From: an uncultured Tateyamaria sp.
GTDB lineage: Bacteria > Pseudomonadota > Alphaproteobacteria > Rhodobacterales > Rhodobacteraceae
Direction: 5' to 3'
Assembly (NCBI RefSeq): GCF_947503705.1
Contig: NZ_CANNES010000002.1
Location: forward strand, 372,001-436,000
Length of the DNA stretch: 64,000 nucleotides
A program made the translations under genes and the position numbers. Every line of letters starts with the position of its first letter. Positions within the stretch are counted from its first letter, which is position 1. Below are positions 1,755 through 16,095 of this stretch, piece by piece. The notes under the pieces are model-generated. The model had not been told where the DNA came from. It searched no databases and saw nothing but the letters and a program-made list of their open reading frames with translations.

Positions 1755-2723
1755 TCAGCCCGTTTGCAGCAGTATCTGCTTCCAAATCGCTGTCTCATCA
1801 AAGAGCGCATATTCCCGACGCAAGCCCCAGGGGCCGAATTCGGCATGGGAAATCCCCAGCACATAAACCTCGGCCCCCGTGGGCGCGCCGAAGTAACCCC
1901 ACCCGTCATGCTTGCCATGCAAGCTCCAACGCAGGGCGGCACGCGGCGGCATCATCGGATCGTCTCGACCAATCTGGTGGTCGATGGTGAATGTTGCATC
2001 CGGGAACGACGCCCGCAGCCCCATCCAGAACCGATCAACTGGCGCCGTCCCGTGCCCGGTCACACCGCCAGGATACTCTGACTGTGCCGCCCGATCATAT
2101 TCGGCCGGGATCACTGCCATGTCCGCGCCCATAATCCGGGTCAGAATATCAGCGTATTTCGCGCCCCAAGCGTTGTCATTGCCGCGACCCTTGTATGGCC
2201 CCGGCTGATCAATTGCGGGGGTCAACGGGCGTACAGCGCTTTCCATACCACCCTCCCGTTCGATCAGATCGGCGGCATAGGCTTTGGCCTCCCACCCGAT
2301 CTGGTTCACGATGGCGGTCTGGTCGCGGATCAACCATTCATCGTTGATCTGATCGTTGATCGCATGACAGTCGGCAATGATCCGGTATTGCAGTTTCTTC
2401 CCGCTCGCCGGTCCATAAACGCCATCGGCAGTATGCGTAGCCGTGGACAGAATGCGGTGCGAGGACAACATCCCTTCCTCCGGCGTGCCGGACCAGATGA
2501 CATCCTCGCCCAAAAGCGCGCGGTCCGGGAACTCGGCCAGAGTGGCCATGGTGGCACCGATGACCTTTTCATTGCCGATGACAACAGAACCGGGCGAGCG
2601 CACCACGATGTCGGGGCTGTAATAATGGTGCAGGGTCGCGATGCCCCGGTCTTCCCAAATCTCCTTGGTAATGCCGATGATATAGTCGGGGAAATCTTTC
2701 CACCGGTTCGAGAAACCCTTCAT
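1755..2723 (-). CDS. Double-domain SnoaL/NTF2-like protein
   Basis: The 322-residue product (MKGFSNRWKDFPDYIIGITK) consists of two SnoaL-like (NTF2-fold) halves. The first, about residues 1-140, has the DFPDYIIGITKEIWEDRG helix, HHYYSPDIVVRSPG and the RIIADCHAINDQINDEWLIR strand pair; the second, about 180-320, has YDRAAQSEYPGG, RFWMGLRASFPDATFTIDH and a terminal ISHAEFGPWGLRREYALFDE strand. The family includes small hydrolases, dehydratases and cyclases, and also non-enzymatic binders. I chose the ATG at 2723, which overlaps the lacI stop as ATGA with AAGGA eight bases upstream, over one nine bases earlier. It is the last gene of the catabolic cluster and a distant paralogue of the genes at 4497 and 6975. 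Confidence 0.85.
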   Translation of the reverse strand: MKGFSNRWKDFPDYIIGITKEIWEDRGIATLHHYYSPDIVVRSPGSVVIGNEKVIGATMATLAEFPDRALLGEDVIWSGTPEEGMLSSHRILSTATHTADGVYGPASGKKLQYRIIADCHAINDQINDEWLIRDQTAIVNQIGWEAKAYAADLIEREGGMESAVRPLTPAIDQPGPYKGRGNDNAWGAKYADILTRIMGADMAVIPAEYDRAAQSEYPGGVTGHGTAPVDRFWMGLRASFPDATFTIDHQIGRDDPMMPPRAALRWSLHGKHDGWGYFGAPTGAEVYVLGISHAEFGPWGLRREYALFDETAIWKQILLQTG

Positions 2724-3739
2724 GAGGTCCATCCTTTGGGAATACGGGCCGAGCCGCGCAGGACGAGCGGGCCGTCCAACGCCACACGGCGGGGTTTGGT
2801 ATCAGGATCGGCGAGCCGGTCCATCAGAATATCAATCGTTGCGGTGACCATCTGGCCCGCAGGCTGGCGCACTGTGGTCAGATCATAGCTGGGCCAGGCT
2901 GACAGGGTGACATCGTCATAGCCCACCACCGACACATCGCTGGGGACGGACAGGCCCAGTTCGAACCGCAGCACGTCCATCACCGCAAAGGCCATGTGAT
3001 CATTGGCCACGAATACCGCATCTGGCCTGTCGGGACCGCAAAACATCTCGCGCGTAATCGTCTTGGCCTGTTCAAAGTCAAAGTTTGCTGCCTGTCGCGC
3101 CACAAGCGATTGCCCCGCTGCCTTCAGCCCCGCGACAAAACCTGCCTCGCGGTCCCGCTGGGTCGAGGCACCATCCCAGCCCGCGATATGCGCAATGCGA
3201 CTGTGACCACCCGCCACCAGAAACTCGGCAAGCTTGCGCCCACCGTGATAGTTGTCGGACGTCACGGCGGACAGCCGGTCATCATCCTGCGCCCGGTTGA
3301 ACAGAACAATGGGAATACCCGCCGCCTCACAGCGGCGCGTCAGGTCGTTGGACATGCCGACGCTGGCGGCGATGATCCCATCCACCTGGTAATCCAACAG
3401 TTCTTCCATCACCTCGTCCGCCTCAGCGCCCGAGTTCGAAGCCATAAAGACCAGCACGTGATAACCGCGATCCTGCAACTCACGGCTCAGCCGCTCCATC
3501 GCTTCCGGGTAGAATTGGTTTTCCAGATAGGCGACCACAAGGCCGACAATGCGCGAGCGTCCTGTGATCAAGCTACGCGCCAGAACGTTTGGGCGGTAGC
3601 CCAGTGCATCGGCGGCCCGGCGCACTTTGGCGGCTGTGCCTTTGGACACCGATGCACCGGGCGTGAACACACGGCTCACCGCCGAGCGCGAGACACCCGC
3701 CCGTTCGGCTACATCCAGCGCTGTCACCTTGTCGCCCAT
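2720..3739 (-). CDS. LacI-family transcriptional regulator
   Basis: This protein of 339 residues begins MGDKVTALDVAERAGVSRSA, a canonical LacI N-terminal helix-turn-helix followed by SRVFTPGASVSKGTAAKV and the hinge ALGYRPNVLARSL. The rest is a periplasmic-binding-protein-like sensor domain (GLVVAYLENQFYPEAMERL, VDGIIAAS, GHSRIAHIAG, DAVFVANDHMAFAVMDVL, SVVGYDDV, TTVRQPAGQM). The start at 3739 was chosen because the HTH begins there and the ATG overlaps the SDR stop by one base (TGATG); longer frames run through the SDR gene. Its position inside the operon suggests that it senses the transported compound or a pathway intermediate and binds the palindrome at 12368-12389. That pairing is an inference. 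Confidence 0.95.
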   Translation of the reverse strand: MGDKVTALDVAERAGVSRSAVSRVFTPGASVSKGTAAKVRRAADALGYRPNVLARSLITGRSRIVGLVVAYLENQFYPEAMERLSRELQDRGYHVLVFMASNSGAEADEVMEELLDYQVDGIIAASVGMSNDLTRRCEAAGIPIVLFNRAQDDDRLSAVTSDNYHGGRKLAEFLVAGGHSRIAHIAGWDGASTQRDREAGFVAGLKAAGQSLVARQAANFDFEQAKTITREMFCGPDRPDAVFVANDHMAFAVMDVLRFELGLSVPSDVSVVGYDDVTLSAWPSYDLTTVRQPAGQMVTATIDILMDRLADPDTKPRRVALDGPLVLRGSARIPKGWTS

Positions 3740-4500
3740 CAGTCTGCTGTCCAGCCTCCGTCGATCATCATCGCAGTGCCCGTCACCATGGCAGACGCGT
3801 CCGAGGCGAGGAATTGCACCGCGCCCATGATGTCGCTGACCTCGCCCACGCGGGGCAGTTTTATCTTGTCCATGATCCAGGCCAGTCGGTCCGGGTCGTT
3901 GAATGTGGGTTCGGTCAACGGTGTGCGAATGAAAGTGGGGCAGATCGTGTTGATCCGAATCCCCGCCTTGCCCCACTCGATGGCCATGGATTTCACCATC
4001 CCTTCAACCGCATGTTTCGAGGCACAATAGACAGCCCGATCAACGCCACCCACGTGACCCATCTGGCTGGAGATATGGATGATGGACCCCGGTTTACCTG
4101 CCGCCATCATCGCCTTGGCTGCATGAGTTGATAGGAAATAAGCGCCGCGCACGTTGATGTTCATCACCGCGTCATAGTCATCCGGCGCGGTCTGTGTCGC
4201 CGCACTGTGACGGGCCAATCCTGCCGAATTCAACACCACGTCAAATGGGTCCTCACAGGCCGCAGCCACAGCCGTCACATCCGTCTGATCCAGCGACAGC
4301 GCCTCGGCCGACCACCCTTCGGCCTGCATCGCATTCACGGCTTCCTGCAACACATCGGCGCGGCGTGCGGCGCAAACGACATGCGCCCCCGCCTCGGCCA
4401 ATGCCACAGCACATCCCAGACCAATACCGGAGGAGGCCCCGGTCACAAGGGCTCGTTTACCGCCAAGATCGAAGGACGGAGTACGTGGCAGGTCAGTCAT
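3739..4500 (-). CDS. SDR-family NAD(P)-dependent oxidoreductase
   Basis: A classical short-chain dehydrogenase/reductase of 253 residues. It shows the cofactor motif TGASSGIG near residue 20, NSAG near 90 (the usual NNAG with one change), a catalytic Ser in IIHISSQMG and the YCASK active-site Tyr-Lys near residue 160, ending MIDGGW as in many 3-oxoacyl-reductase-like SDRs. It probably oxidises a secondary alcohol or reduces a ketone in the catabolic pathway of this cluster. The start overlaps the upstream SnoaL gene by four bases (ATGA) and the stop overlaps lacI, so it is tightly coupled on both sides. The substrate is unknown. Confidence 0.93.
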   Translation of the reverse strand: MTDLPRTPSFDLGGKRALVTGASSGIGLGCAVALAEAGAHVVCAARRADVLQEAVNAMQAEGWSAEALSLDQTDVTAVAAACEDPFDVVLNSAGLARHSAATQTAPDDYDAVMNINVRGAYFLSTHAAKAMMAAGKPGSIIHISSQMGHVGGVDRAVYCASKHAVEGMVKSMAIEWGKAGIRINTICPTFIRTPLTEPTFNDPDRLAWIMDKIKLPRVGEVSDIMGAVQFLASDASAMVTGTAMMIDGGWTAD

Positions 4501-5543
4501 AGCGCCCGCCCCGTTTCCGGGTCAAAGCCCGCGCGCACCTTGTTGAACTCGCGCATCCGGGCAAAGACATCCACACCAATCTGGGCATACATATGCAACA
4601 GATCCACCATTACCCAATTCTCCCGGATCAAGCCGTTCTCTACCCGCCAAAAGTCCAACGAGCGCATCTCGATCTTTTTGTCCACAGGCGGAATGCCCAA
4701 CCAGCCGTCATGGCTGATGGTCTGGTACATGTCCGGCCAGCCGGTAACCGCAGCATAGTTCCGGTCACCAAAGAAATGGTAGGTAATCTCGTCCACATAG
4801 CGGCCCCGGTCCGGCATCCCGTTCAGGAACGGAATCTGGTGCCAGTTGCGAAAACCCTCGATGCCGCGCCCGGTGCCGATACCCGAAGGGCCGTACCACG
4901 TCATCTTGGGATGCCAGAAACGGTCCATCTCCATTACTTCGGGGCCGCCCTGGCTGGGGTGCCGCTTCATATGCTCCAGCATATCAATGATGTGTTGGCA
5001 GGTCGCCGCCCCCGCTGCCGGATCAAAGGGGCCAGGCACCAGACCGTCGCAGGTGGCGGGCCCGGGCACGTGCCATTCGCGGCCAAGGGACGGCACCATC
5101 GGCCAGGCACCCGCTTGCATCATCACTTCGGGGATGTCCCACAGGGCCTGCATCTCGACGATCTGACCATCTTTGATCTGATAGAATTCGTGAAAGCGCA
5201 TGTGCATGATGTGACCGGTGGGCGGAATATCCAACCAGGGAGCAACAAACGCACCCGTATAGTAACCGCCGCAACCGACCCAATCATTGCCCTCGGGCGT
5301 TGGCCCGGCCATCACGATATGATCCCGTCGCTCAAGATCGGGCACAGCAGACATCAGAGGCGCATAAGCCTTGTCTAGATAGGCATCCACACCCACCGTT
5401 GTCTCGAACGGAAAGGCGAGGCGAAACGCAACATCCGGCGCACAAACCGCCTTCATCGCCGCGCGCAAAGCGTCCAGATCAAAATCATACATGGCCGCCC
5501 GGATGGGGGCGACAAGTTCTTTGTTCCGCGAATGGGGATCCAT
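4497..5543 (-). CDS. Double-domain SnoaL-like (ester cyclase-like) protein
   Basis: The 348-residue product begins MDPHSRNKELVAPIRAAMYD. The first SnoaL-like domain spans about residues 1-160 (CAPDVAFRLAFPF, GCGGYYTGAF, MHMRFHEFYQIKDGQIVEMQ) and the second about 185-335 (MDRFWHPKMTWYGPSGIG, GIEGFRNWHQIPFLNGMPD, MRSLDFWRVENGLIRENWVM). The tail of the second domain, DFWRVENGLIRENWVMVDL..., matches the single-domain protein at 6975 nearly residue for residue, so the two are paralogues. SnoaL folds catalyse aldol-type ring closure, hydrolysis or dehydration, or act as binding proteins. Start at 5543 is supported by GGAACAGAG upstream and by the N-terminal domain beginning there. It lies between the dehydrogenase gene and the SDR. 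Confidence 0.88.
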   Translation of the reverse strand: MDPHSRNKELVAPIRAAMYDFDLDALRAAMKAVCAPDVAFRLAFPFETTVGVDAYLDKAYAPLMSAVPDLERRDHIVMAGPTPEGNDWVGCGGYYTGAFVAPWLDIPPTGHIMHMRFHEFYQIKDGQIVEMQALWDIPEVMMQAGAWPMVPSLGREWHVPGPATCDGLVPGPFDPAAGAATCQHIIDMLEHMKRHPSQGGPEVMEMDRFWHPKMTWYGPSGIGTGRGIEGFRNWHQIPFLNGMPDRGRYVDEITYHFFGDRNYAAVTGWPDMYQTISHDGWLGIPPVDKKIEMRSLDFWRVENGLIRENWVMVDLLHMYAQIGVDVFARMREFNKVRAGFDPETGRAL

Positions 5544-5579
5544 AGTCTCTGTTCCAAAAAATCTCTGCGGTGGTCGCCC

Positions 5580-5616
5580 GCCCTGCGCCAAAGGTTCAAG
5601 ACCGATGGCGCAGGGC
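5580..5616 (-). other. Intergenic stem-loop between dehydrogenase and SnoaL genes
   Basis: Arms GCCCTGCGCCA (5580-5590) and TGGCGCAGGGC (5606-5616) pair perfectly over 11 bases with a 15-base loop. It lies in the gap between the histidinol-dehydrogenase-like stop (5637) and the next start (5543). There is no T-run after it, so an mRNA stability or partial-attenuation element is likelier than a full terminator. Confidence 0.6.
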
Positions 5617-5636
5617 TGACCCCCGACATTTGCTAT

Positions 5637-6965
5637 TTATTCCGCCGCGTCACGCGCAGGCGCACCTTCGCCATAAGGTACATTGACACCGCCATAGCGG
5701 CGGACACGCAGATTGCATTGCTCGGCGTGTCCGACAAAACCTTCCAGCATACACAAGCGCGACCCGTAGGCGCCAATCGCTGCTGCGGCTTCGTCGGTCA
5801 GCACTTTCTGATAGGAGTGTGTTTTCAGGTACTTGCCGACCCAAAGCCCGCCCGTATAACGCCCGGCCTTTTTTGTGGGCAGGGTGTGATTGGTGCCAAT
5901 CACCTTGTCGCCATTGGCCACATTAGTGCGCGGACCAAGGAAAAGCGCACCGTAGCAGGTCATGTGCTCCAAGAACCAGTCGTCGCGATCGGTCATCACC
6001 TGCACGTGCTCGGACGCAACATCATCAGCCACGCCGAGCATCTCTTCGTATGTGTCGCACAGGATGATTTCACCATAGTCGTCCCACGACTTCGAGGCTG
6101 TATCTGCCGTCGGCAATATCTTGAGAATACGCGCGATTTCGGCTTGAGTCTCTTCGGCCAGTTTGCGCGAGTTGGTCAGCAGGACGGCGGGGGAGTTGTA
6201 GCCATGCTCGGCCTGACCCAAGAGGTCAGTGGCGCACATTTCGGCATCCACTGTTTCGTCGGCGATGACCATGGTTTCTGTCGGTCCCGCGAACAGATCG
6301 ATACCGACGCGGCCAAACAATTGCCGTTTGGCCTCGGCCACAAAAGCGTTACCTGGTCCCACCAGCATGTGGACAGGATCAATGGTCTCGGTTCCGATGG
6401 CCATGGCGCCCACCGCCTGGATGCCGCCCATGACATAAATTTCATGCGCGCCGCCCAGGTGCATTGCCGCGATCACCGCTGGGTTCGGCTTGCCTTGCCA
6501 CGGTGGAGTGGCAGCCACAATGCGCGGCACGCCTGCCACGCTGGCCGTTGCGACAGACATATGGGCCGAAGCCACCATCGGAAACTTGCCACCGGGCACA
6601 TAGCAACCCACGGATTGGACGGGGATATTCTTGTGCCCAAGGATCACGCCTGGCATCGTTTCAACTTCGATATCCAGCATCGAGTCGCGCTGCGCCTGGG
6701 CAAAATCACGCACCTGTTGTTGGGCAAACTTGATGTCTTCGAGTTCGCGAGGCGTAAGCTCGGCGATGAGGGCGTCAATCTCGGGCTGGGTCAGACGGAA
6801 AGACGGCGGTGAGTAGCTGTCGAATTTTTCAGACAGCGCACGCACAGCAGCGTCGCCATTAGCCTCGATATCGGCAAGGGTGCTTTCGACGATGGCGCGG
6901 GTTTTGGCGTCGTCTTCGGCGCGCTCTGCATCCGGCTTGCCGCGCTTGAGATATTCGATTGTCAT
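5637..6965 (-). CDS. Histidinol-dehydrogenase-family NAD(P)-dependent dehydrogenase
   Basis: The 442-residue enzyme is a full-length member of the HisD family. The residues used by HisD for zinc binding and catalysis are present at equivalent places: Gln251 and His254 in LLGQAEHG, the Glu319-His320 pair in ASEHVQV, Asp353 in NGDKV and His413 in EGFVGH. HisD-family members outside histidine synthesis, such as HpsN (sulfopropanediol 3-dehydrogenase), oxidise an alcohol in two steps to a carboxylate. No other his gene is nearby, and the setting (ABC importer, SDR, LacI) is catabolic, so I infer the oxidation of a hydroxylated substrate rather than histidinol. It starts nine bases after the SnoaL gene at 6975. 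Confidence 0.9.
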
Positions 6966-6974
6966 GTCTTCACC

Positions 6975-7505
6975 TTATGCTTGCGGACGCGGCGGAACCT
7001 TGTCGCCCCGATCAAAGGCTTCCCAGCCTTCGCCGTTGAATACATCGACGCCCAGTTGGGCCAGAACGTGCGGGAAGTCGACCATCACGTAGTTGTCCGT
7101 AATCCGACCGTCCTCGACCTTCCAAAAGTCCATGTACCTGATTTCGATACGCTTTCCAGACGCGGCCACCCCCATGAAGTCGCCAGCATGTGTGGCCTCC
7201 TGCCGACCGAAGGCCGCTGCCCATTCGCCCATGTAAAGCCGCGCTTCATCCACGCAGACCTTGTCCGAGAACGCCGCCTGGAAGGGGCGCTGCCAATTGT
7301 CCTGAAACTCTTGCAGGCCGTTTTTCGTGCCGCAACCGGTGTTGCCCATCCAGCGAAAAGACTGGGCAAAGAACTGGCCAATATCGTCGATGCGGTGATC
7401 GTTGAGGCCATCCACCATCCCTTCGATTACCGCGCGCGTGGCGTCGGTCTTGGACAAATCTGTGTCACGGGTCAGTACCGCCTGTTCGGGTCGGGATCCT
7501 TTCAT
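6975..7505 (-). CDS. Single-domain SnoaL-like protein
   Basis: A SnoaL/NTF2-fold protein of 176 residues. After an N-terminal helix (ATRAVIEGMVDGLNDHRIDD) come FFAQSFRWMGNTGCG, NGLQEFQDNWQRPFQAAFSD and the conserved C-terminal strands EIRYMDFWKVEDGRITDNYV then MVDFPHVLAQLGVDVF. This C-terminal part is closely similar to the second domain of the protein at 4497. The start is supported by AAAGGAG seven bases upstream; a long stem-loop ends directly against that ribosome site (7519-7565). It is the first gene after the ABC permeases and is followed after nine bases by the dehydrogenase, suggesting that the two act together. The reaction is unknown. Confidence 0.88.
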   Translation of the reverse strand: MKGSRPEQAVLTRDTDLSKTDATRAVIEGMVDGLNDHRIDDIGQFFAQSFRWMGNTGCGTKNGLQEFQDNWQRPFQAAFSDKVCVDEARLYMGEWAAAFGRQEATHAGDFMGVAASGKRIEIRYMDFWKVEDGRITDNYVMVDFPHVLAQLGVDVFNGEGWEAFDRGDKVPPRPQA

Positions 7506-7518
7506 CGGATACTCCTTT

Positions 7519-7565
7519 CATATTGAACTTGAAAACGCGTCGAACGATCGACGCAGTTCAATATG
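7519..7565 (-). promoter_or_regulatory. Nested stem-loop abutting a ribosome-binding site
   Basis: Outer arms CATATTGAACT (7519-7529) and AGTTCAATATG (7555-7565) are perfect complements; inner arms GCGTCGA (7537-7543) and TCGACGC (7548-7554) form a second helix. On the minus-strand transcript the structure ends directly before the AAAGGAG of the SnoaL gene at 7505, so its folding could affect translation of that gene. Confidence 0.65.
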
Positions 7566-7589
7566 AAGTCCCGGGGCAATCGGTTCAGC

Positions 7590-7611
7590 GCAGGATGCTG
7601 CTGCATCCTGC
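7590..7611 (-). other. Intergenic stem-loop downstream of permease gene
   Basis: Arms GCAGGATGC (7590-7598) and GCATCCTGC (7603-7611) pair perfectly with a TGCT loop. It lies 22 bases after the permease stop on the minus strand. No T-run follows, so it is probably a 3'-end stabiliser or processing site between the transporter and enzyme parts of the operon. Confidence 0.55.
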
Positions 7612-7632
7612 TGGATCGGGTTGCTTTGCTCA

Positions 7633-8784
7633 TCAGCCCTTTACAGCTCCTGCGGTGAGGCCTGACACGATCTGGCGTTGGAACACCATGACCAGGAGAA
7701 AGAGCGGGGCCGTGATCGAGACAGCTGCCGCCACCGCCTCGACCTGATCGGTGGTTGTGGTTTCTCGGTTGAAGTAGCCCGCGATGGCTGGAACCATCGT
7801 CTGGTTCTGCGCATCCAACAAAAGGGCCGTCACGAGGAAATCGTTGTAGCCAAGAAGGAAGCTGAACAGCCCTGTCGTGATCACGCCTGGCCACATGACT
7901 GGCATGATCACACGGCGGAAGGCCTGAAAATGTGAGCAGCCGTCAACGCGAGCGGCCTCGTCAAGCTCGGCCGGAATGTTCTGGAAGAAGCTGCGCAGCA
8001 TCCAGATCGTAAACGGTTGGTTGATTGCCACCAGCACCGCGATGATCGCCCAGGGCTGACCGTAAAGCGTCGGGCTAAGATCGCCCAGAATGGGCCGCAG
8101 AATCTCGGCCGAGTTGATGAACCAGGGCAGGTAGCCTGCCACGAGCACCGAATGCGGCAAGGCGCGGAATACCAGCGCCACGATCAACAGCCAGAACGCG
8201 AGATCAGAGCCGGAGCGCGCAAGCCCGTAGCCGGCCAGAGTGCCCACCGTTAGCGAAACCGTCACAACACCTGCCGTGACGATCATCGAATTCATGAAGT
8301 TGCGGTAAAACTGGTTTTCGCCCCAAACGGCCACGTAATGCTCGGTCGTGAGGCCGAGGATTGGCGTGCCAAGCGGCCCCGCGATGCTGTTTAGCGCGCC
8401 GGAAACATAGGGCAGCACACCAAAGAAAATCAGCACAAAGATCAAGCCGTAAACGGCCGCGCCAACAAGCCAGCCCAGCACGATGAAACCGGAGGGCGAG
8501 TATTGCTGCACCAATCCGGGCAGGCGGGTGAACGCCCAGCGGATTGCGAAATAGAGGACAACCAGACCAATCACGATGTCGAGAAGGCTGAGCCCGTTTC
8601 CGGCGGCACGCGTTGCAGGCCCGGTGATCACATCCCAGGCACTGGCGGCGAAGGCGTCGCGCGGGGACTTTACGCTCATCACCGCGATCCACACGATGGG
8701 GAAGGCCGCGATCAGGCACCAGAAGGCGAGGAAGGTGCCGGATGCAATTTTCAGCGACAGCGGTTGTGCGGTGGCTTTACTCAT
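7633..8784 (-). CDS. ABC transporter permease, MalG type (carbohydrate class)
   Basis: This inner-membrane permease has 383 residues. A first membrane helix lies at residues 15-37 (FLAFWCLIAAFPIVWIAVMS) and the binding-protein-dependent transport domain occupies about 150-375. The ATPase-contacting EAA loop is recognisable as EAARVDGCSHFQAFRRVIMP. An extra pair of hydrophobic stretches at about 60-130 makes it longer than the usual 270-300 residues of MalG. It pairs with the MalF-type permease at 8813, the ATPase at 11258 and the binding protein at 9947. The gap to the MalF-type gene is 28 bases. Substrates of this class are sugars, polyols or related hydroxylated compounds; the actual one is unknown. 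Confidence 0.92.
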   Translation of the reverse strand: MSKATAQPLSLKIASGTFLAFWCLIAAFPIVWIAVMSVKSPRDAFAASAWDVITGPATRAAGNGLSLLDIVIGLVVLYFAIRWAFTRLPGLVQQYSPSGFIVLGWLVGAAVYGLIFVLIFFGVLPYVSGALNSIAGPLGTPILGLTTEHYVAVWGENQFYRNFMNSMIVTAGVVTVSLTVGTLAGYGLARSGSDLAFWLLIVALVFRALPHSVLVAGYLPWFINSAEILRPILGDLSPTLYGQPWAIIAVLVAINQPFTIWMLRSFFQNIPAELDEAARVDGCSHFQAFRRVIMPVMWPGVITTGLFSFLLGYNDFLVTALLLDAQNQTMVPAIAGYFNRETTTTDQVEAVAAAVSITAPLFLLVMVFQRQIVSGLTAGAVKG

Positions 8785-8812
8785 GTGCGGTTCCCTTTTG
8801 GACAGACGGGCA

Positions 8813-9841
8813 TCAGTGTGCCCCCCCTTTGTGGTCGCGCCACGTGCGGCGCAGCGGCAGGATCAGCAGGACCACGATACCCACCATGGTCAGCATGGCG
8901 CTGGCAGCGGCTCGGCTGATGGCGCGGTTGCCCGCATCATCCGGCGTGAGGAAATCGAAGGTCAGCCATTGCAACGAGATCACGTGCGCCTGGCTGCGGA
9001 AGCCGATGATTTCATCAAAGACACGGTAGCAGTCCATCAGGTGAATCAGCGCGATAAAGATGATCAGCGGCATCAGGTGCGGCACGATCACATAGCGCAG
9101 CCGCTCGAACCGGGACGCGCCGTCAATGATGGCGCTTTCCAGCGTGTCCATGTTCACCGTTTGCAGCCCCGCGTAGAAGATCACGAAGGCAAAGGGAGCC
9201 ACGTGCCAAACCCGGTAGAAATACATTAGCAACTCGATGGTCCACGCTTGGGCAAACATCGCAATGTCCTGCCCGGTCCAGCGTTCGAGTGTAGCGGTGA
9301 GAATGCCGTCGCCGACAAAGAGCCAGTAGATCGACAACGACCCGATCACCGGCGTGATAATGAAGGGCAGAAGTGAGACAAAGATAACCGGACCACGCAG
9401 GCTTTTGGCCGCGTTATTGACCGCCAATGCGATCATCAGGCCTACGCCGATGACCAGCGGCAGCGTGACCAGCGTGAACATCAGTGTGAACCGCAGGGCC
9501 TTCCAAAAGTCGATTTGAAGGATATCTCGCCACTGGCCCGAGCCGATGGCCTCCCAAAACTTGTCCATTTGCAGGACGTTCTGGTAGCTTTGAAAGCCGA
9601 CCCAGGCGGTGGTGGTCTGGGTCTTGCCGGTCACCTCGTCGATGATGGGCACCGTTTTGACCTCGGTCGTACAGGTCTGGGTCAGGAAGCCAGGCGTGCA
9701 GGTTTCCACTTCGATCTGTTGCATAACCGGCTGGGTGATCTGGAACGACTGGATGAACACCGAGATCAGCGGCGCCGCAATAAAGAGCAGCATCATGAAA
9801 ACCGATGGGCCGACAAATGCGGCAAAGGTCTTGAACTTCAT
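8813..9841 (-). CDS. ABC transporter permease, MalF type
   Basis: A 342-residue permease beginning MKFKTFAAFVGPSVFMMLLF. A membrane helix at 5-27 is followed by a periplasmic segment containing a CTPGFLTQTC pair of cysteines (possible disulfide), then the transport domain from about 115 with five helices. The EAA-type loop reads ESAIIDGASRFERLRYVIVP. The start at 9841 is supported by GGAAGGA; the longer frame has no ribosome site. It forms the heterodimeric pore with the MalG-type permease and is separated from the upstream binding-protein gene by a hairpin-containing gap. Confidence 0.92.
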   Translation of the reverse strand: MKFKTFAAFVGPSVFMMLLFIAAPLISVFIQSFQITQPVMQQIEVETCTPGFLTQTCTTEVKTVPIIDEVTGKTQTTTAWVGFQSYQNVLQMDKFWEAIGSGQWRDILQIDFWKALRFTLMFTLVTLPLVIGVGLMIALAVNNAAKSLRGPVIFVSLLPFIITPVIGSLSIYWLFVGDGILTATLERWTGQDIAMFAQAWTIELLMYFYRVWHVAPFAFVIFYAGLQTVNMDTLESAIIDGASRFERLRYVIVPHLMPLIIFIALIHLMDCYRVFDEIIGFRSQAHVISLQWLTFDFLTPDDAGNRAISRAAASAMLTMVGIVVLLILPLRRTWRDHKGGAH

Positions 9842-9908
9842 CGTCTGTCCTTCCTGAAACAGGCAGTCCGCTTGGCGCAACCGTACCGGACATACGGCTG
9901 GGCAAAGC

Positions 9909-9936
9909 GGCTGGCCGGGGGCACCCCCGACCAGCC
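9909..9936 (-). other. Stem-loop after binding-protein gene
   Basis: Arms 9909-9920 and 9925-9936 (GGCTGGCCGGGG with CCCCGACCAGCC) pair over 12 positions with one G-U wobble around a 4-base loop. On the minus strand it follows the binding-protein stop (9947) and precedes the MalF-type start. Hairpins in this position in other ABC operons protect the upstream message and lower expression of the permeases; that role is inferred here. Confidence 0.6.
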
Positions 9937-9946
9937 TGAGATGTGA

Positions 9947-11164
9947 TCAGAGCACGCCGGCTTCTTTGGCCGATGTGGTGTAGGCTTCTTCGATCGCTTG
10001 CAGTGTCGCGGCCGCATCACGCTCGCCTGTGAGGAAGGCGGGCAACTCGTTGCCGAGTGCTGTGTGCAGCAGACCCATTTGCGTGGTCGAAGGATATGGC
10101 GGTGCCGATGGCGAAGCGGTGGCCGTCTCGATGGCGCCCTTGGCCAGGTCGCCCGGCACATAGCCGTTGATCAGCCAAATCGCCGCTTCGTTGTTGGCGG
10201 TGACCATGTCCTCGTCCAGGCCTTCCATCGCCAGACGGAAAGCGGCGTCAGCCTCTTCGTCCGTTATGTTGGCCGCGATCACGATACCGTCCCACCACAG
10301 GGTGGTTGCCGGTGCGCCGCCTTCAACGGCCACAGGTGCGCCCGCCATTGCGACCTTGCCCACGACCGAGCTTTCGCTTTCGTCGTTCATGGCACCGGCG
10401 CGACTGGCCCAGAGGTTCGCCATAGCGATCTTGCCCTGCTGGAATTGCTGCTGGACATAGGTGCTGTCGCTGACCAGGACTTCGGGGTCGGTATAGGCGA
10501 GCGTTTTCTGCATCGTGGCCAACGCGTTCATCCCTGCTTCGGAATTTACGGCGGTGGTGTTGTCGGCGTTAAAGAACGTGCCGCCAAAGCCGGGATACAT
10601 GTTCACGAATTCCTGGGCGAGGTTCCAGCCGGATTTCATTGTGGCCCCAATGGGGTAATCCACTACGCCTGCCTTTGCGATCACGTCAGCCGCAGCAAAG
10701 ACTTCATCCCAGGAGGTGGGCGTGTCGATGCCCAGATCGGCCAGGATATCGCTACGGTACATGAGGTGTTGGGTGTTGACCATCATGGCGATGGCCATTG
10801 TCTTGCCATCGACCTTGATCAGCTGGTTGGGCTGCAGGTTTGCGCCGTATTTCGCGACAAGATCGTCCAGAGGACGAATGGTGCCCGCATTCAGGAGCGG
10901 CGTGATGGTGCCGTTGGACACGCCACCGATGTGGTAGAGTGATGGGTTGGCCTCAAAGGCGGCAGGCTGCTTCGTGCGGAATTCCTGATCCAGCTCTGCT
11001 TGGAAGTTGCCGCACTCGGCCATGGCGTCTGTTACGGCTTTCCAGGCTTCAAAACCCGCTGTCAGCGACTTCAGCGGTACGGTGTTTTCGTAGCTGCATG
11101 CGGCAAATGCCGATGTGCCCAAAAGCGAGACCGCGCCCGCCAGTGCCAGTTTCTTCAAATACAT
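9947..11164 (-). CDS. Extracellular solute-binding protein, family 1
   Basis: The 405-residue precursor starts MYLKKLALAGAVSLLGTSAF with a signal peptide cleaved near AFA-A. The mature part has the family-1 fold: DQEFRTKQPAAFEANPSLYH, then PLDDLVAKYG, MMVNTQHLMYRSDILADLGI and TPTSWDEVFAAADVIAKAGV, as in sugar and polyol binders. It delivers the substrate to the two permeases. I chose the ATG at 11164 because GGGAG precedes it and the signal peptide starts there. Tight stem-loops lie both upstream (11226-11251) and downstream (9909-9936), setting this gene apart within the operon. The ligand is not predictable from the sequence. Confidence 0.93.
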   Translation of the reverse strand: MYLKKLALAGAVSLLGTSAFAACSYENTVPLKSLTAGFEAWKAVTDAMAECGNFQAELDQEFRTKQPAAFEANPSLYHIGGVSNGTITPLLNAGTIRPLDDLVAKYGANLQPNQLIKVDGKTMAIAMMVNTQHLMYRSDILADLGIDTPTSWDEVFAAADVIAKAGVVDYPIGATMKSGWNLAQEFVNMYPGFGGTFFNADNTTAVNSEAGMNALATMQKTLAYTDPEVLVSDSTYVQQQFQQGKIAMANLWASRAGAMNDESESSVVGKVAMAGAPVAVEGGAPATTLWWDGIVIAANITDEEADAAFRLAMEGLDEDMVTANNEAAIWLINGYVPGDLAKGAIETATASPSAPPYPSTTQMGLLHTALGNELPAFLTGERDAAATLQAIEEAYTTSAKEAGVL

Positions 11165-11225
11165 ATGCAAACTCCCTGTTGCGTTGTGCGCCAGTGCATC
11201 TTGCAAGTCTGCACTGGTCTGGTTG

Positions 11226-11251
11226 GCCCGGCCGGGTGCCCCCGGCCGGGC
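11226..11251 (-). other. Perfect GC-rich stem-loop between ATPase and binding-protein genes
   Basis: Arms GCCCGGCCGGG (11226-11236) and CCCGGCCGGGC (11241-11251) are exact complements with a TGCC loop. On the minus strand it lies just after the ATPase stop (11258) and 62 bases before the binding-protein start. No T-run follows. It may act as an RNA processing or stability boundary. Confidence 0.6.
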
Positions 11252-11257
11252 AGTTCT

Positions 11258-12304
11258 TCAGGCGATACGCTCGCCGGAATTGCTGTCAAAGGCGTGGCAA
11301 ATGCCAACCGGAATGGAGAAGGATACCGTGTCGCCAATCTGGGCGCGGAACTCCTTGTGCGTCTTGACCGACACCAATTGCCCGCCGGCACGTACTGTCA
11401 GCATGACCGCGTCGCCCAAAAGCTCGATGGTATAGATCGGGGCCGTGATCTGGCCCTCGCCGTCGGCCAGCGCTGCATCTTCGGCCCGGAACCCCAGGGT
11501 CACCTTGCCGTCGCCCGCAGGCAGACCCGAGATCGACACGTTATCACCGGTGAAGGTGCCACCCTTCATCTCGCCGTCCATCAGGTTCATGGCGGGCGAG
11601 CCGATAAAGCTGGCGACGAAGGTGTTGGCGGGATGATCATAGATTTCGGTGGGTGTGCCGACTTGTTGCACCTTGCCCTGCTTCATCACCACGACACGGT
11701 CGGCCAAGGTCATCGCCTCAATTTGGTCATGGGTCACATAGACGGTTGTCACTTTCAACTCGTGGCTGAGATTCTTGATCTGGGCACGGGTCGACACACG
11801 CAACTTGGCATCAAGGTTGGACAGGGGCTCGTCCATAAGGAAAACATTAGGTTCGCGCACAATGGCCCGCGCCAGGGCCACCCGCTGGCGCTGGCCACCT
11901 GATAGTTCCGCAGGCTTGCGGTGCAGAAACTCATCCAGCTCAACCATTGCGCTGGCGCGGCGCACCCGCTCATCGTGTTGCGCTTCGGGTACCTTGCGGA
12001 CTTTCAGAGGGAACCGGATGTTCTCGTACACGTTCATATGCGGGTAAAGACCGTAAGACTGGAACACCATCGCCACATCGCGGTCTTTGGGATCAAGGTC
12101 ATTGACCCGTTTGCCGTCGATCAGAATGTCGCCTTCTGTCGCGTCCTCAAGACCCGCGATCATGCGCATCGTCGTGGTCTTGCCACACCCTGAGGGGCCA
12201 AGCAGAACAAGGAACTCTTCGTTCCCGATGGTCAGGTCAAAGTTGTCGACGCCGACGAATGAGCCCCAACGCTTGTTGATATTGCGCAACTGAATTTCGG
12301 CCAT
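11258..12304 (-). CDS. ABC transporter ATP-binding protein, MalK/UgpC type
   Basis: This 348-residue ATPase begins MAEIQLRNINKRWGSFVGVD. It has Walker A LLGPSGCGKTT near residue 40, Q-loop FQSYGLYPHM, signature LSGGQRQRVALARA, Walker B VFLMDEPLSNLDA and the switch histidine in VTHDQIEA. A C-terminal TOBE domain (from about 235) is present, as in sugar/glycerol-phosphate importers, where it can dock regulators. Start 12304 was chosen because GGGGGACC lies upstream and the family starts there. It is the first gene of the catabolic operon, with the palindromic operator candidate 64 bases upstream. Confidence 0.94.
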   Translation of the reverse strand: MAEIQLRNINKRWGSFVGVDNFDLTIGNEEFLVLLGPSGCGKTTTMRMIAGLEDATEGDILIDGKRVNDLDPKDRDVAMVFQSYGLYPHMNVYENIRFPLKVRKVPEAQHDERVRRASAMVELDEFLHRKPAELSGGQRQRVALARAIVREPNVFLMDEPLSNLDAKLRVSTRAQIKNLSHELKVTTVYVTHDQIEAMTLADRVVVMKQGKVQQVGTPTEIYDHPANTFVASFIGSPAMNLMDGEMKGGTFTGDNVSISGLPAGDGKVTLGFRAEDAALADGEGQITAPIYTIELLGDAVMLTVRAGGQLVSVKTHKEFRAQIGDTVSFSIPVGICHAFDSNSGERIA

Positions 12305-12367
12305 CCGGTCCCCCACAGAAATGTGATGTCCTCACGCTAGTCAGCAGGTGCCGGACTTGGCAACTGT

Positions 12368-12389
12368 TTTTTGCACACGTGTGCAAAAA
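12368..12389. promoter_or_regulatory. 22-bp perfect palindrome, LacI-type operator candidate
   Basis: Arms TTTTTGCACAC (12368-12378) and GTGTGCAAAAA (12379-12389) are exact complements with a central CG, the hallmark of LacI-family operators. It lies 64 bases upstream of the ABC ATPase start, in the only sizeable gap (182 bases) ahead of the catabolic operon. The lacI gene at 2720-3739 belongs to the same cluster and is the natural candidate regulator. Confidence 0.75.
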
Positions 12390-12486: not shown

Positions 12487-14637
12487 TCAGCGCGCGTACA
12501 GCTCTGCGGCAGCCTGAGCTATACCTGCGGCAGAGGGCAAAGTGGCCGCATAGGCCCGGCCAGTCGCGATAAAGCTGTCCTGCGCCGTGTAGCGGGCCAG
12601 TTTGCGATGGCCTGCTTCAAAGAGTGCGGTCATCACCCCCTCGGCCACCCCACCAGAACGGCGAGTTTCGTCTACAACAAGCACCGCATTGCACCCCCGC
12701 ACCGCAGCCAACACGGCATCAATCGGCAAGGGCGACAACCAACGTAAATCCACAATCCGCGCACCTGGCACTTCCGCTTGTTCGGCCAGGTAACGCCCGT
12801 TGCCAAAGGTCACGATGGCGACATCCGTGCCCGTTCCGTGAACGCCCACCGCACCCAGGTCAATCCGCTGCTCCGGCGCGGGGTACGTGCGCATCCAGGC
12901 CCCATCCCCCGGCGTCACATCCCGCATCGGGTAGAGGGCGATTGGCTCCACAAACACGCTCACGCGGTTCTCTTCGCGGGCTAAACGGTGGCATTCGCGC
13001 AGCATCATGGCCGCCTCTGCCCCATCGGACGGGCAGGCTACGATCAGACCCGGGATATCGCGCAAAACCGCCAAGGCATTATCGTTATGAAAATGCCCCC
13101 CGAAGCCCTTTTGGTAACCCAACCCCGCAATCCGCAGAACCATGGGATTGGTCCATTGCCCGTTAGAGAAAAACGGCAACGTCGCCGCCTCACCGCGCAA
13201 CTGGTCTTCTGCGTTGTGCAGGTAGGCAAGAAACTGGATTTCGGGCATCGGGATGAAGCCGTTATGGGCCATGCCGATTGCCAGGCCCAGAATGCTTTGT
13301 TCATCCAAAAGGGTGTCAATGACCCGCGCCGGGCCAAACCTGGCCTGCAACTTCTGGGTCACGCCATAAACGCCGCCCTTACGCCCCACATCCTCGCCCA
13401 TGACAACCGTTTCGGGATGAGCCAGCATCAGATCCGTCATCGCCCAGTTGATCAGGCGGGACATCGGCTGGGGCGTGTTCATCTGGGCCATGTCACTGCC
13501 AAAGGCGGCCTTGCGCGCCTCGGCGCTGGGGCCGTTGCGCTTAGAATGAACGCGGGGCGGCGGCACGATGGCCGACATGACGGCGGCGGCATCCGGCAAG
13601 GGCGCGGCATCAGCCACTCTTGCAGCCTCGGCGCGCACCCGGTCAAGAGTAGCGGTGTAGGTGTCGACGACGTCTTGGGGTGTCAGGTCCATTTGCAAGA
13701 GGCCTGCGGCGCTGCGCAAAAGCGGATCATTGGCTTCGTCCGCCTCGACCTCTGCCCGGGGCAGATAGCTGGTGGCGACATCCGCGCCGGCATGGCCATA
13801 AAGGCGCACGGTACTTAGGTGAAGCACAGCGGGCTTGCGCTGGGTCCGCACGAAATGCGCCGCCTCGGCTGTTGCACGGTAGGCATCCCACATGTCCAAC
13901 CCGTCGCCTTGGAAGTAAGCCAAACCGGGACGATGGCGCAGGCTGTTTTCCACCCAACCCGTGGGCGTTTTGGTCGAAATGCCAATCCCGTTGTCTTCGC
14001 AGATGAACAAAAGTGGCAAGGGCACACCCTGGACGCTGGTCCAACCGGCGGCATTGATCGCACCTTGGGCAGTGGAGTGGTTCAGGGATGCATCCCCAAA
14101 GCTTGCCACCGCAATCCCGTCTTTTGGCACGATCGCGCCCTCGGGCGAATTGCGACGCGCAAGACCCAAACCAAAGGCGGCCCCGACGGCCTTGGGCAGA
14201 TGGCTCGCGATAGTCGAGGTTTGGGGCGGGATGAACAGGTCACGACTGCCCAGCACCTTGTGGCGCCCGCCACTGGTCGGATCATCGGCGGCACAGGCAA
14301 AGCTGAGCAGCATGTCGCGGCACATATCCTGGCCCTTCTGGGCCGCCCGTGCCACCTGAAAGGCCCCATCGCGGTAGTGTAGAAAGGCAATGTCGTCCGG
14401 GCGCAGTGCATGGGCCACTGCTGCCATCCCTTCATGTCCGGAGGACCCGATCGTGTAGAATCCCTGCCCCGCCTTTTGCATTTCGCGGCTGACAATATCC
14501 AGAGCGCGGGTCAGGCATTGATAGGCAAACAGCGCGCTGGATGCCTCTGGATCAAGCCCATTCGGTATCACGTTAGGCAGATCGCGCGCCGCAACACGGC
14601 GCAAAAAGTTATCGTGAACAATCGAAACGCGGTCCAT
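12487..14637 (-). CDS. Thiamine-diphosphate-dependent E1 dehydrogenase, alpha and beta fused
   Basis: The 716-residue protein joins both E1 subunits of a 2-oxoacid dehydrogenase. Residues about 1-340 are alpha-like, with HEGMAAVAHALRPDD, RDGAFQVARA and the ThDP/Mg motif FGDASLNHSTAQGAIN ending in CEDNGIGIS. Residues about 385-716 are beta-like: INWAMTDLMLAHPETVVMGE, GVTQKLQARFG, DEQSILGLAIGMA, then IPGLIVACPSDGAEA and VVDETRRSGGVAEGV. The family includes branched-chain and acetoin-type E1 enzymes. No E2 or E3 gene is in the window. It lies on the same strand directly downstream of glutaryl-CoA dehydrogenase but is separated from it by a terminator-like repeat, so a shared pathway is only a possibility. 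Confidence 0.9.
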   Translation of the reverse strand: MDRVSIVHDNFLRRVAARDLPNVIPNGLDPEASSALFAYQCLTRALDIVSREMQKAGQGFYTIGSSGHEGMAAVAHALRPDDIAFLHYRDGAFQVARAAQKGQDMCRDMLLSFACAADDPTSGGRHKVLGSRDLFIPPQTSTIASHLPKAVGAAFGLGLARRNSPEGAIVPKDGIAVASFGDASLNHSTAQGAINAAGWTSVQGVPLPLLFICEDNGIGISTKTPTGWVENSLRHRPGLAYFQGDGLDMWDAYRATAEAAHFVRTQRKPAVLHLSTVRLYGHAGADVATSYLPRAEVEADEANDPLLRSAAGLLQMDLTPQDVVDTYTATLDRVRAEAARVADAAPLPDAAAVMSAIVPPPRVHSKRNGPSAEARKAAFGSDMAQMNTPQPMSRLINWAMTDLMLAHPETVVMGEDVGRKGGVYGVTQKLQARFGPARVIDTLLDEQSILGLAIGMAHNGFIPMPEIQFLAYLHNAEDQLRGEAATLPFFSNGQWTNPMVLRIAGLGYQKGFGGHFHNDNALAVLRDIPGLIVACPSDGAEAAMMLRECHRLAREENRVSVFVEPIALYPMRDVTPGDGAWMRTYPAPEQRIDLGAVGVHGTGTDVAIVTFGNGRYLAEQAEVPGARIVDLRWLSPLPIDAVLAAVRGCNAVLVVDETRRSGGVAEGVMTALFEAGHRKLARYTAQDSFIATGRAYAATLPSAAGIAQAAAELYAR

Positions 14638-14771: not shown

Positions 14772-15995
14772 TTAAACGAATGCTTGCAAGCCCGTTTGGG
14801 CGCGCCCCAGGATCAATGCGTGCACATCGTGCGTCCCCTCATAGGTGTTCACCGTTTCAAGGTTCATCATGTGACGCATGACCTGGAATTCGCCGGATAT
14901 TCCGTTACCACCATGCATGTCGCGGGCGTTGCGCGCGATATCTAGGGCCTTGCCGCAATTGTTGCGCTTCACGATGGAGATCATTTCGGGTGCGGCTTGG
15001 GCCGCATCCATCAGACGTCCCACTTGCAACGAGGCTTGCAGGCCCAGCGCAATCTCAGTTTGCATATCGGCCAGCTTTTTCTGGAAAAGCTGCGTTTGCG
15101 CCAAAGGTTTGTCGAACTGCTTGCGGTCCAGCCCGTATTGACGGGCCGCGTGCCAGCAGAACTCGGCCGCGCCCATCGCGCCCCAGCTGATGCCATAGCG
15201 TGCGCGGTTCAGGCAGCCGAATGGGCCTTTAAGACCCTGCACATCGGGCAGCAACGCGTCCTCGCTCACGATGACATCCTTCATCACGATCTCACCGGTG
15301 ATGGAGGCGCGCAGGCTCAGCTTGTTTTCGATCTTGGGCGCGGACAGGCCCGCCATCCCTTTTTCCAAAACAAAGCCGCGGATCTTGCCGCCATGCGCTT
15401 CGGATTTCGCCCAAACCACAAACACATCCGCAATCGGCGCGTTGGAAATCCACATCTTGGCGCCGTTCAAGATATAACCGCCATCGACCGTCTTGGCGGT
15501 GGTTTTCATCCCCGCAGGATCTGAACCCGCGTCGGGTTCCGTCAGGCCGAAACAGCCGATCCATTCGCCTGACGCAAGTTTCGGAAGATACTTCTGGCGC
15601 TGCGCCTCGGAGCCGTAGGCGTAGATCGGATAGATCACGAGGCTTGATTGGACCGACATCATCGACCGATACCCCGAATCGATCCGTTCAACTTCCCGGG
15701 CAACGAGGCCGTAAGACACATACGAGCCTCCGAGCCCGCCATAGTCCTCAGGCAAGGTCACACCCAAGAGCCCCATGTCGCCCATTTCACGGAAAATCTC
15801 GGGCTCGGACGTCTCATTGGCAAAGGCGTCAATGACGCGGGGCGCAAGCTTTTCAGCGGCATAGGCGGCGGCAGAAGCCTGGATCATCCGCTCGTCTTCG
15901 GTCAGCTGATCCGCAAGGCGGAAGGGGTCGGCCCAGTCAAAGCTGCCCAAATCCGGTGCATCCTTCGCCTTCAGGATTTTTGTTTCTGCGTTCAT
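14772..15995 (-). CDS. gcdH: Glutaryl-CoA dehydrogenase
   Basis: This protein of 407 residues matches glutaryl-CoA dehydrogenase along its whole length. It has the acyl-CoA dehydrogenase signatures [20 protein letters not shown] and [20 protein letters not shown]. The catalytic base is Glu386 in [20 protein letters not shown], the typical GCDH C-terminus. It oxidises and decarboxylates glutaryl-CoA to crotonyl-CoA in lysine, tryptophan and benzoate breakdown, passing electrons to ETF. A LysR gene is divergently transcribed 100 bases away, the usual arrangement for a dedicated activator. It is probably monocistronic, given the terminator-like repeat downstream. Confidence 0.95.
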
Positions 15996-16032
15996 GCCGG
16001 CGCCCCTCTCAAGGATAGAAGTTTTGCGCAGT

Positions 16033-16078
16033 ATTGCAGAAAACAGGTCAGAGTTCTAACGATGGCTTGTTCTGCAAT
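16033..16078. promoter_or_regulatory. Divergent promoter region gcdH/lysR with spaced inverted repeat
   Basis: ATTGCAGAA (16033-16041) and TTCTGCAAT (16070-16078) are perfect complements separated by 28 bases. They lie in the gap between gcdH and the LysR gene. LysR regulators usually bind such gaps at two spaced sites, so this is a plausible binding region; the individual bases that matter are not resolved. Confidence 0.4.
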
Positions 16079-16095
16079 GCATGAGAAAAACTCAT

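Follow-up and report, generated by a model that had tools for sequence, protein, structure and literature searches.

Operon organization and gene content

We analysed a window of 64,000 nucleotides from an uncultured Tateyamaria sp. (contig NZ_CANNES010000002.1, positions 372,001 to 436,000; positions below are counted from the first nucleotide of the window), in which a minus-strand gene run encodes an ABC importer, three SnoaL proteins, a short-chain dehydrogenase/reductase (SDR), a LacI-family regulator and a dehydrogenase of the HisD superfamily. Judged by sequence comparison, a locally regulated, conserved catabolic operon carrying a distinct HisD-superfamily subfamily is really present here. 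The initial annotation had described ten minus-strand genes at 1755-12389; all ten are open reading frames (ORFs), and Pfam and NCBIfam searches agreed with the classes assigned to them (SnoaL/SnoaL_2, LacI, SDR, Histidinol_dh, two BPD_transp_1, SBP_bac_1 and ABC_tran). Several of the genes, although real, were listed with start codons that are too far upstream, and the likely starts lie inside the listed ORFs (lacI 3739, snoB 5543, permease-1 9841, SBP 11164 and ATPase 12304); these were chosen by eye from homologues and checked as open frames.

All of the genes are read from the minus strand. The run begins with the importer, which consists of a UgpC/MalK-type ATPase (11258-12304, ORF 11258-12316; Pfam, with PRK11650 above its cut-off), an extracellular solute-binding protein of the SBP_bac_1 family (9947-11164, ORF 9947-11206), and two BPD_transp_1 permeases (permease 1, 8813-9841, ORF 8813-9880; permease 2, 7633-8784). 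An SBP_bac_1 protein, two such permeases and a UgpC/MalK-type ATPase in one operon identify a carbohydrate ABC importer of the CUT1 family. These genes are followed by SnoaL-C (6975-7505), the HisD-superfamily dehydrogenase (5637-6965), SnoaL-B (4497-5543, ORF 4497-5591), the SDR (3739-4500), the LacI-family regulator (2720-3739, ORF 2720-3976) and SnoaL-A (1755-2732). Spacing is typical of one transcription unit: snoB and sdr overlap by 4 bases, sdr and lacI by 1 and lacI and snoA by 13, and the remaining computed intergenic gaps are 127 bases or less.

The run does not stop at 1755, where the initial annotation had ended it. It continues on the minus strand with a PPOX-type FMN flavoprotein (1022-1702, likely start 1630; 80% identity to the protein of a relative, L040), a DUF6653 protein (483-1019; homologue in L065) and a bicupin, recognized from its homologues, whose N-terminal part occupies 1-486 of the window and whose whole gene reaches from 486 to -476 (17525-18487 in L074). 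On the contig to the left of the window lie a SAM-methyltransferase (16929-17534 in L074), a MetE-like gene (15791-16912) and an RraA-like gene (15095-15784). The operon thus seems to comprise about 16 genes under a single switch.

A palindromic site before the ATPase gene

The other boundary, at 12389, coincides with a perfect 20-base palindrome, TTTTGCACACGTGTGCAAAA (12369-12388), that lies 64 bases before the likely ATPase start and is a putative LacI-type operator. The regulator has a LacI helix-turn-helix and a ligand-binding domain, and the palindromic site at its own operon has a central CG. When up to two mismatches were allowed, the 18-base core of the palindrome was the sole such site in the genome, and a reversed control pattern gave 0 matches. 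Of 78 regions examined (the window and 77 related loci), 73 have a degenerate motif, TTGCANNCGNNTGCAA, before the ATPase gene, and 0 of 15600 base-shuffled regions contain it. Across 80 related loci, 94 of its 97 occurrences fall within 250 bases before the ATPase gene, and 45 of those 94 sites also precede a divergent two-domain SnoaL gene. Among 149 genomes of the family, 7, our own included, have a single site each for TTTTGCANACGTNTGCAAAA, a 20-base pattern in which two positions are free; at the two of these seven sites whose neighbours were read, this brought no additional members of the regulon to light. Because the motif is conserved before the ATPase gene and the site is single in the genome, the pattern is that expected of a LacI-type regulator with one target, which would presumably bind here.

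A fused two-subunit E1 dehydrogenase gene (12487-14637) and a glutaryl-CoA-dehydrogenase-like gene (14772-15995) were considered as operon members and left out, because they lie upstream of the palindrome and accompany the operon in a minority of loci (16 and 20 of 80, respectively).

Conservation of the gene set

To follow the gene set in other genomes, the 80 loci were fetched with SnoaL-B from named genomes among the matches listed, which included at least 551 confirmed relatives before the cut; SnoaL-B is therefore present in them by construction. Presence thresholds for these loci, and the E-value limits for the genome profiles described below, were chosen by the analyst, and one alignment (A1), which fed the 80-locus scan pattern and one profile, included a sequence read on the wrong strand (L024, 22% identity). 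The loci come from Tateyamaria, Roseobacter, Sulfitobacter, Ruegeria, Roseibium, Shimia and others, and the closest named relatives among the matches listed are Tateyamaria and other Roseobacteraceae. SnoaL-B or a paralogue was matched in 31 of 101 related genomes.

Most genes of the operon are retained in most loci: the ATPase, the solute-binding protein, each permease and LacI are found in 78 of the 80 loci, SnoaL-A in 79, SnoaL-C and the SDR in 77, the cupin in 76, HisD and the MetE-like protein in 74 and the RraA-like protein in 65. Other genes are more variable, namely the divergent SnoaL (57), an alpha/beta hydrolase (43, and not seen within the operon of the window itself), the methyltransferase (33), the PPOX flavoprotein (24), DUF6653 (14), an extra SnoaL (12), a GMC oxidoreductase (9) and a GST (7). 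Gene set and order thus recur in most of the loci, which by this comparison is more than chance. Six loci are without HisD; one of them, L187, is cut by the contig just before SnoaL-B, and the other five lack HisD at its usual place. Outside these six, L166 has its HisD elsewhere in the locus.

Plasmids carry the operon as well, for instance those of Ruegeria conchae, Paracoccus alcaliphilus and Octadecabacter arcticus. It is carried by the 77-kb p77023 of P. alcaliphilus (L069) and the 160-kb pOA238_160 of O. arcticus (L211), and the relaxase or transposase genes nearby suggest plasmid spread.

A third subfamily of HisD-superfamily dehydrogenases

The dehydrogenase matches Pfam PF00815 (Histidinol_dh) with an E-value of 2e-132 and, by homology, is of the Zn/NAD type. 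Its catalytic residues, all of which had been named beforehand, align with those of CpHpsN: Gln251, His254, Glu319-His320, Asp353 and His413 correspond to Gln248, His251, Glu318-His319, Asp352 and His411. We use HisD-X as a name for the third HisD-superfamily subfamily to which it belongs. When matches at E-values of 1e-100 or below were collected from 398 genomes of the phylum, identities fell into two bands, 63-100% and 45-49%, and the upper band, HisD-X, was represented in 31 of the 398 genomes.

Residues were compared in 157 sequences. All 135 distinct sequences with at least 60% identity to the window protein have the motif GK[F/Y]P[M/L] (GKFPM in the window, GRYAH in CpHpsN), whereas of 20 sequences at 40-60% identity 16 have GRY[S/A]H, four have GRYP[I/L] and none has GK[F/Y]P[M/L]. 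Groups in the comparison and in the tree were named by motif, which makes motif counts inside them a matter of construction; the split at 60% and 40-60% identity is independent of the motif. The catalytic Gln248, His251, Glu318, His319, Asp352 and His411 (CpHpsN numbers) are kept in 135 of 135 HisD-X rows. In CpHpsN, His126, within GRY[A/S]H, binds the sulfonate and Lys353 contacts it (PMC11382572). HisD-X retains Lys353 (Lys354 in the window) in 135 of 135 rows, and has Met (121) or Leu (14) at the position of His126 (Met130 in the window). A tree of 90 rows, which took 68 of the 135 HisD-X rows after thinning at 90% identity, placed HisD-X (99/85), HpsN (100/100) and the GRYP[I/L] group (100/99) in separate clades; its bootstrap was unsettled, long branches were flagged, the single HisD row sat on a very long branch, and no root is claimed. 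The GRYP[I/L] clade of HisD-like proteins (L105-L107 and L232) stands beside SnoaL genes and HisD-X in L105-L107.

These comparisons set HisD-X apart as a dehydrogenase subfamily of its own, in which a catalytic site of the alcohol-to-acid type is intact. From Lys354 and the altered pocket residue Met130, HisD-X is expected to oxidise an alcohol to an acid on an anionic substrate that is neither a sulfonate nor an imidazole.

By its automatic name the protein would belong to histidine biosynthesis, its gene having strayed into a sugar operon, and it does score above the TIGR00069 hisD cut-off (425.6 vs 243.8 bits), shares the superfamily and the catalytic residues with L-histidinol dehydrogenase, and has Met or Leu where HisD mostly has Leu (PMC11382572). 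However, a second HisD-family gene elsewhere in the genome (contig C2, 492279-493496) scores higher on PF00815 (E 4e-167 vs 2e-132), and the closest solved structure to HisD-X is HpsN (8v35, E 1e-113) rather than E. coli HisD (1k75, E 4e-59). HisD-X also has Lys at the HpsN-353 position, where the single HisD row compared has Tyr, and its gene sits among catabolic genes. On the second HisD-family gene and the closeness to HpsN, we set aside a role in histidine biosynthesis as highly improbable, although the TIGR00069 cut-off is passed.

A closer candidate is a variant of the pathway for 2,3-dihydroxypropanesulfonate (DHPS), with HisD-X as HpsN, the SDR as HpsO and DHPS carried by the importer. 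HpsN is the nearest solved structure, the superfamily, the catalytic Gln/His/Glu-His/Asp/His set and the sulfonate-contacting Lys353 are shared, HpsN too is paired with an SDR, HpsO (8wwf, E 1e-38) is among the relatives of the SDR, and catabolic use of HpsO/HpsN is known in Roseobacteraceae (PMC11131964). Against this, identity to HpsN is 45-49%, GK[F/Y]P[M/L] replaces GRY[A/S]H so that His126 is absent, and HisD-X does not group with CpHpsN in the tree. The neighbours also differ, HisD-X being accompanied by SnoaL, cupin, RraA-like and MetE-like genes and a CUT1 importer; no HpsP or sulfolactate enzyme is among the identified locus genes (no genome-wide search was made), and the SDR resembles 2-deoxygluconate and gluconate dehydrogenases more than it does HpsO. 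The genome holds a separate HpsN-type gene with GRYSH (L003; contig C5, 4-1005, cut by the contig end), and DHPS use may therefore be encoded elsewhere. On motif and tree we reject membership of the dehydrogenase in HpsN, and a DHPS variant of the operon as a whole is very improbable. The initial annotation had allowed that the dehydrogenase might fall into a known clade whose pathway would explain its neighbours; the tree puts it outside the HpsN clade, and the genes around it differ from those of the DHPS pathway.

SnoaL proteins, SDR and cupin

Three SnoaL/NTF2-like proteins had been predicted, and the family assignment stands; Pfam adds that two of them, SnoaL-A and SnoaL-B, carry two SnoaL domains, whereas SnoaL-C (176 amino acids) carries one. 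A structure model of SnoaL-B, built with 46 rows (pLDDT 92), has a tandem SnoaL fold. Its best Foldseek matches are the two-domain polyether epoxide hydrolases MonBI/MonBII (E 6e-12) and Lsd19, followed by single-domain SnoaL cyclases and hydroxylases. The likeness to MonBI/MonBII and Lsd19 lies in the two SnoaL-type domains per chain; identity is about 15%, SnoaL-B is encoded in a catabolic operon, and the whole-chain TM is only 0.3-0.4, which means that the domain arrangement differs or that only one domain aligns. Two aspartates, Asp152 and Asp330 (numbered on the 364-residue ORF), do not vary across the 46 rows, and each half of the protein contains one of them. Another SnoaL-type gene in the same genome (L060; contig C8, 13108-14142) has 33% identity to SnoaL-B over most of its length.

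The SDR was placed by Pfam, NCBIfam and a sequence search against solved structures closest to KduD and to 2-deoxygluconate and gluconate dehydrogenases; HpsO is a more distant match. The cupin was modelled from a homologue (L126), the gene of the window being cut by the window edge, and the model (pLDDT 80) is a bicupin near quercetin 2,4-dioxygenase, oxalate decarboxylase and salicylate 1,2-dioxygenase (TM about 0.4-0.5). Searches of the cupin and the MetE-like protein against PDB sequences gave weak matches only.

These folds could point to the breakdown of a natural product of aromatic or polyketide-like type, in which SnoaL would act as a cyclase or lyase and the bicupin as a ring-cleaving dioxygenase. 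The fold neighbours of SnoaL are indeed polyketide and polyether enzymes, and those of the bicupin include quercetin 2,4-dioxygenase and salicylate 1,2-dioxygenase. However, oxalate decarboxylase is about as good a neighbour of the cupin, whose model is of modest confidence, and among the operon genes no further oxygenase was identified. The CUT1 importer, LacI, the KduD-like SDR and the GarL/HpaI-like aldolase of relatives point instead to carbohydrate-like compounds, and we consider the aromatic route improbable.

Co-occurrence of SnoaL, cupin and HisD-X

The initial annotation would have been weakened had the SnoaL genes been missing from most orthologous clusters. They are not, as their frequency in the 80 loci indicates, and a profile drawn up in the same 398 genomes agrees. 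Here HisD-X (best place at 63% identity or more) is present in 31 genomes, the cupin in 24, SnoaL-A in 23 and the MetE-like protein (at least 60% identity) in 16. Every one of the 23 genomes that carry SnoaL-A also carries the cupin and HisD-X (Fisher 2e-36 for the cupin and 6e-31 for HisD-X, with genomes treated as independent), and outside the family of the window the overlap is 7 of 7 (4e-14 and 2e-11, again on the assumption of independent genomes, which does not hold). The cupin occurs without SnoaL-A or HisD-X in one genome, and eight have HisD-X without SnoaL-A. At the chosen cut-offs, the presence of SnoaL is not random with respect to the cupin and HisD-X, as far as this profile indicates.

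Of the 31 HisD-X places, 20 were picked by eye for spread and examined; the plasmid regions described below were likewise picked by eye. Within 8 kb of HisD-X, SnoaL and the cupin occur in the same 11 loci, the SDR in 16, LacI and a transporter in 15 each, an aldolase and an alpha/beta hydrolase in 10 each, the MetE-like gene in 5 and an amidase in 3.

Distant relatives

Outside the close relatives, HisD-X is found with other partners. A Klebsiella michiganensis plasmid has LacI, HisD-X, SDR, MFS, an alpha/beta hydrolase, an aldolase/citrate-lyase-family protein and a cupin. Novosphingobium sp. EMRT-2 has HisD-X, SDR, an aldolase/citrate-lyase-family protein and an amidase, with a second HisD-like gene, a cupin, a hydrolase and SnoaL nearby. 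Sinorhizobium medicae ml29, in which the HisD-X match spans 73% of the query, has SDR, LacI, cupin, RraA, amidase, hydrolase, SnoaL and a UgpC-type importer, and three genomes of family f85 (L105-L107) have HisD-X, SDR, an alpha/beta hydrolase, HpcH, cupin, MFS, SnoaL and a second HisD-like gene. Plasmids of Sulfitobacter, Alloyangia, Antarctobacter and Marinovum combine TAXI-TRAP, HisD-X and SDR with no SnoaL in the regions read, and three of the four also carry an aldolase/citrate-lyase-family protein. On the Alloyangia and Antarctobacter plasmids (L212 and L214) HisD-X and SDR are followed by a nadA-aspartate oxidase-nadC set for NAD synthesis, and in L067 and L215 by NAD(P) transhydrogenase genes.

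RraA and HpcH belong to separate enzyme families with similar 2-oxoacid substrates, and in some distant relatives HpcH takes the place of RraA beside the same genes. Two HpcH proteins were scanned and scored best as HpaI and GarL, the scanned alpha/beta hydrolases matched PcaD-type lactonases and a Ruegeria amidohydrolase matched L-fucono-1,5-lactonase, in each case below the curated cut-offs. Some distant relatives swap the transporter and the aldolase (RraA or HpcH) and yet keep HisD-X, the SDR and the cupin. The kinship of the SDR, the HpcH or RraA aldolases and the lactonase-like partners together suggest a sugar-acid-like route.

A proposed pathway and its alternatives

We tentatively favour the reading that one LacI-controlled operon imports and breaks down a small sugar- or polyol-like compound, probably one that bears a carboxylate, a reading that we think stands only slightly below an even chance of being correct. 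The CUT1 importer would bring the compound in, and the two-domain SnoaL proteins and the bicupin would turn it into a terminal diol by opening, hydration or dehydration, assisted in many relatives by the lactonase-like alpha/beta hydrolase. HisD-X could then convert R-CHOH-CH2OH to the 2-hydroxyacid with 2 NAD+, Lys354 holding the acidic group, and the SDR could convert the 2-hydroxyacid to the 2-oxoacid. The RraA-like aldolase, or a GarL/HpaI-like HpcH in some relatives, would cleave or decarboxylate the 2-oxoacid to central metabolites; this aldolase, outside the window, makes sense of the HisD-X/SDR pair. Other MetE-family members transfer alkyl or methyl groups to thiols, and the MetE-like protein may do the same here. 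We infer both the substrate and the order of steps, from diol to hydroxyacid, oxoacid and cleavage, and the chemistry of the initial annotation (alcohol to acid, with a SnoaL-type step) likewise remains inference; its view of a catabolic system under a LacI regulator is supported, and among open-licence PMC papers, judged by title and the start of the abstract, no description of the gene cluster was found.

The proposed route resembles the non-phosphorylative sugar-acid pathways (those with HpcH/HpaI aldolases such as GarL and RhmA, or RraA/LigK-type aldolases) in its LacI control, its KduD-like SDR, its pyruvate-type aldolase family and the lactonase-like hydrolases of relatives. It differs in that no IlvD- or enolase-type dehydratase is among the identified operon genes, and HisD-X, SnoaL and the bicupin are, to our knowledge, not part of these pathways.

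Several observations weigh against a single route of this kind. The cupin has the HxHx3E motif, but Arg120, invariant in 22 rows, replaces the usual fourth metal-ligand His. In the MetE-like proteins the Cys motif is present in 73 of 73 and the His-x-Cys pattern in 45 of 73, and we presume that these motifs belong to the Zn site of the family; the roles proposed for the cupin and the MetE-like protein are guesses. Five of the 80 loci (L170, L183, L199, L203 and L204) are without HisD at its usual place beside SnoaL-B, although L203 ends soon after the SnoaL-B region. In 4 of the 23 genomes with SnoaL-A (G278, G303, G333 and G408) the cupin is far from HisD-X or on another contig. SnoaL and the cupin were not found within 8 kb in 9 of the 20 HisD-X loci examined, and we therefore regard SnoaL as part of this version of the pathway and not of every HisD-X locus. 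There is no SnoaL in the region read of the Klebsiella plasmid, and the cupin, HisD-X and SDR found there indicate that SnoaL is not needed everywhere. Conversely, in the regions read of Vibrio pelagius, Halobellus limi and Phaeobacter piscinae, SnoaL genes and an ABC importer occur without HisD-X.

In these last three regions the importer and several SnoaL genes adjoin, respectively, sarcosine oxidase and purU (L070), a MetE-like and a GcvT-like gene (L071, from an archaeon) and a selenium-binding-protein (SBP56) gene (L208).

The SnoaL regions without HisD-X, together with the five loci, imply that two modules may be involved. The importer, SnoaL and MetE-like proteins would then serve a methylated or cyclic compound, and HisD-X, the SDR, the aldolase and the cupin its downstream product; SnoaL would act on a larger molecule, a fragment of which would be the substrate of HisD-X. 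The combination of HisD-X and SDR with TAXI-TRAP or MFS, with no SnoaL in the regions read, fits such a division as well. However, in the 398 genomes SnoaL-A occurs only with the cupin and HisD-X, and SnoaL and the cupin share the same 11 of 20 loci. This co-occurrence suggests that SnoaL serves the HisD-X route itself, a suggestion that the Klebsiella cupin without SnoaL weakens. We regard two modules in one operon as a serious candidate, if a somewhat unlikely one.

Within the favoured reading of a single catabolic operon, a more specific proposal can be put forward, namely an undescribed pathway that many marine Rhodobacterales share with some distant bacteria. Two-domain SnoaL proteins akin to epoxide hydrolases and the MetE-like protein, as a thiol transferase, would open an imported cyclic or epoxide-type polyol, or a similar compound, and a third functional class of the HisD superfamily would oxidise the diol to an acid for aldolase cleavage. 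This is conceivable, although in so definite a form unlikely. Pantoate, pyridoxine, betaine-lipid head groups, aryl-glycerols and isoprene-derived epoxydiols were considered as substrates from chemistry alone and were not adopted, since direct evidence for them is lacking.

Implications

HisD-X is labelled histidinol dehydrogenase in databases, where it passes TIGR00069, or is open to annotation transfer from HpsN, and it appears to be neither. Genome surveys that treat it as HisD or HpsN would exaggerate the extent of histidine or DHPS metabolism. With one operator, one binding protein and few enzymes, the substrate should be directly findable in culturable relatives such as Ruegeria and Tateyamaria, and the imported compound may be a nutrient of marine and plant-associated bacteria.

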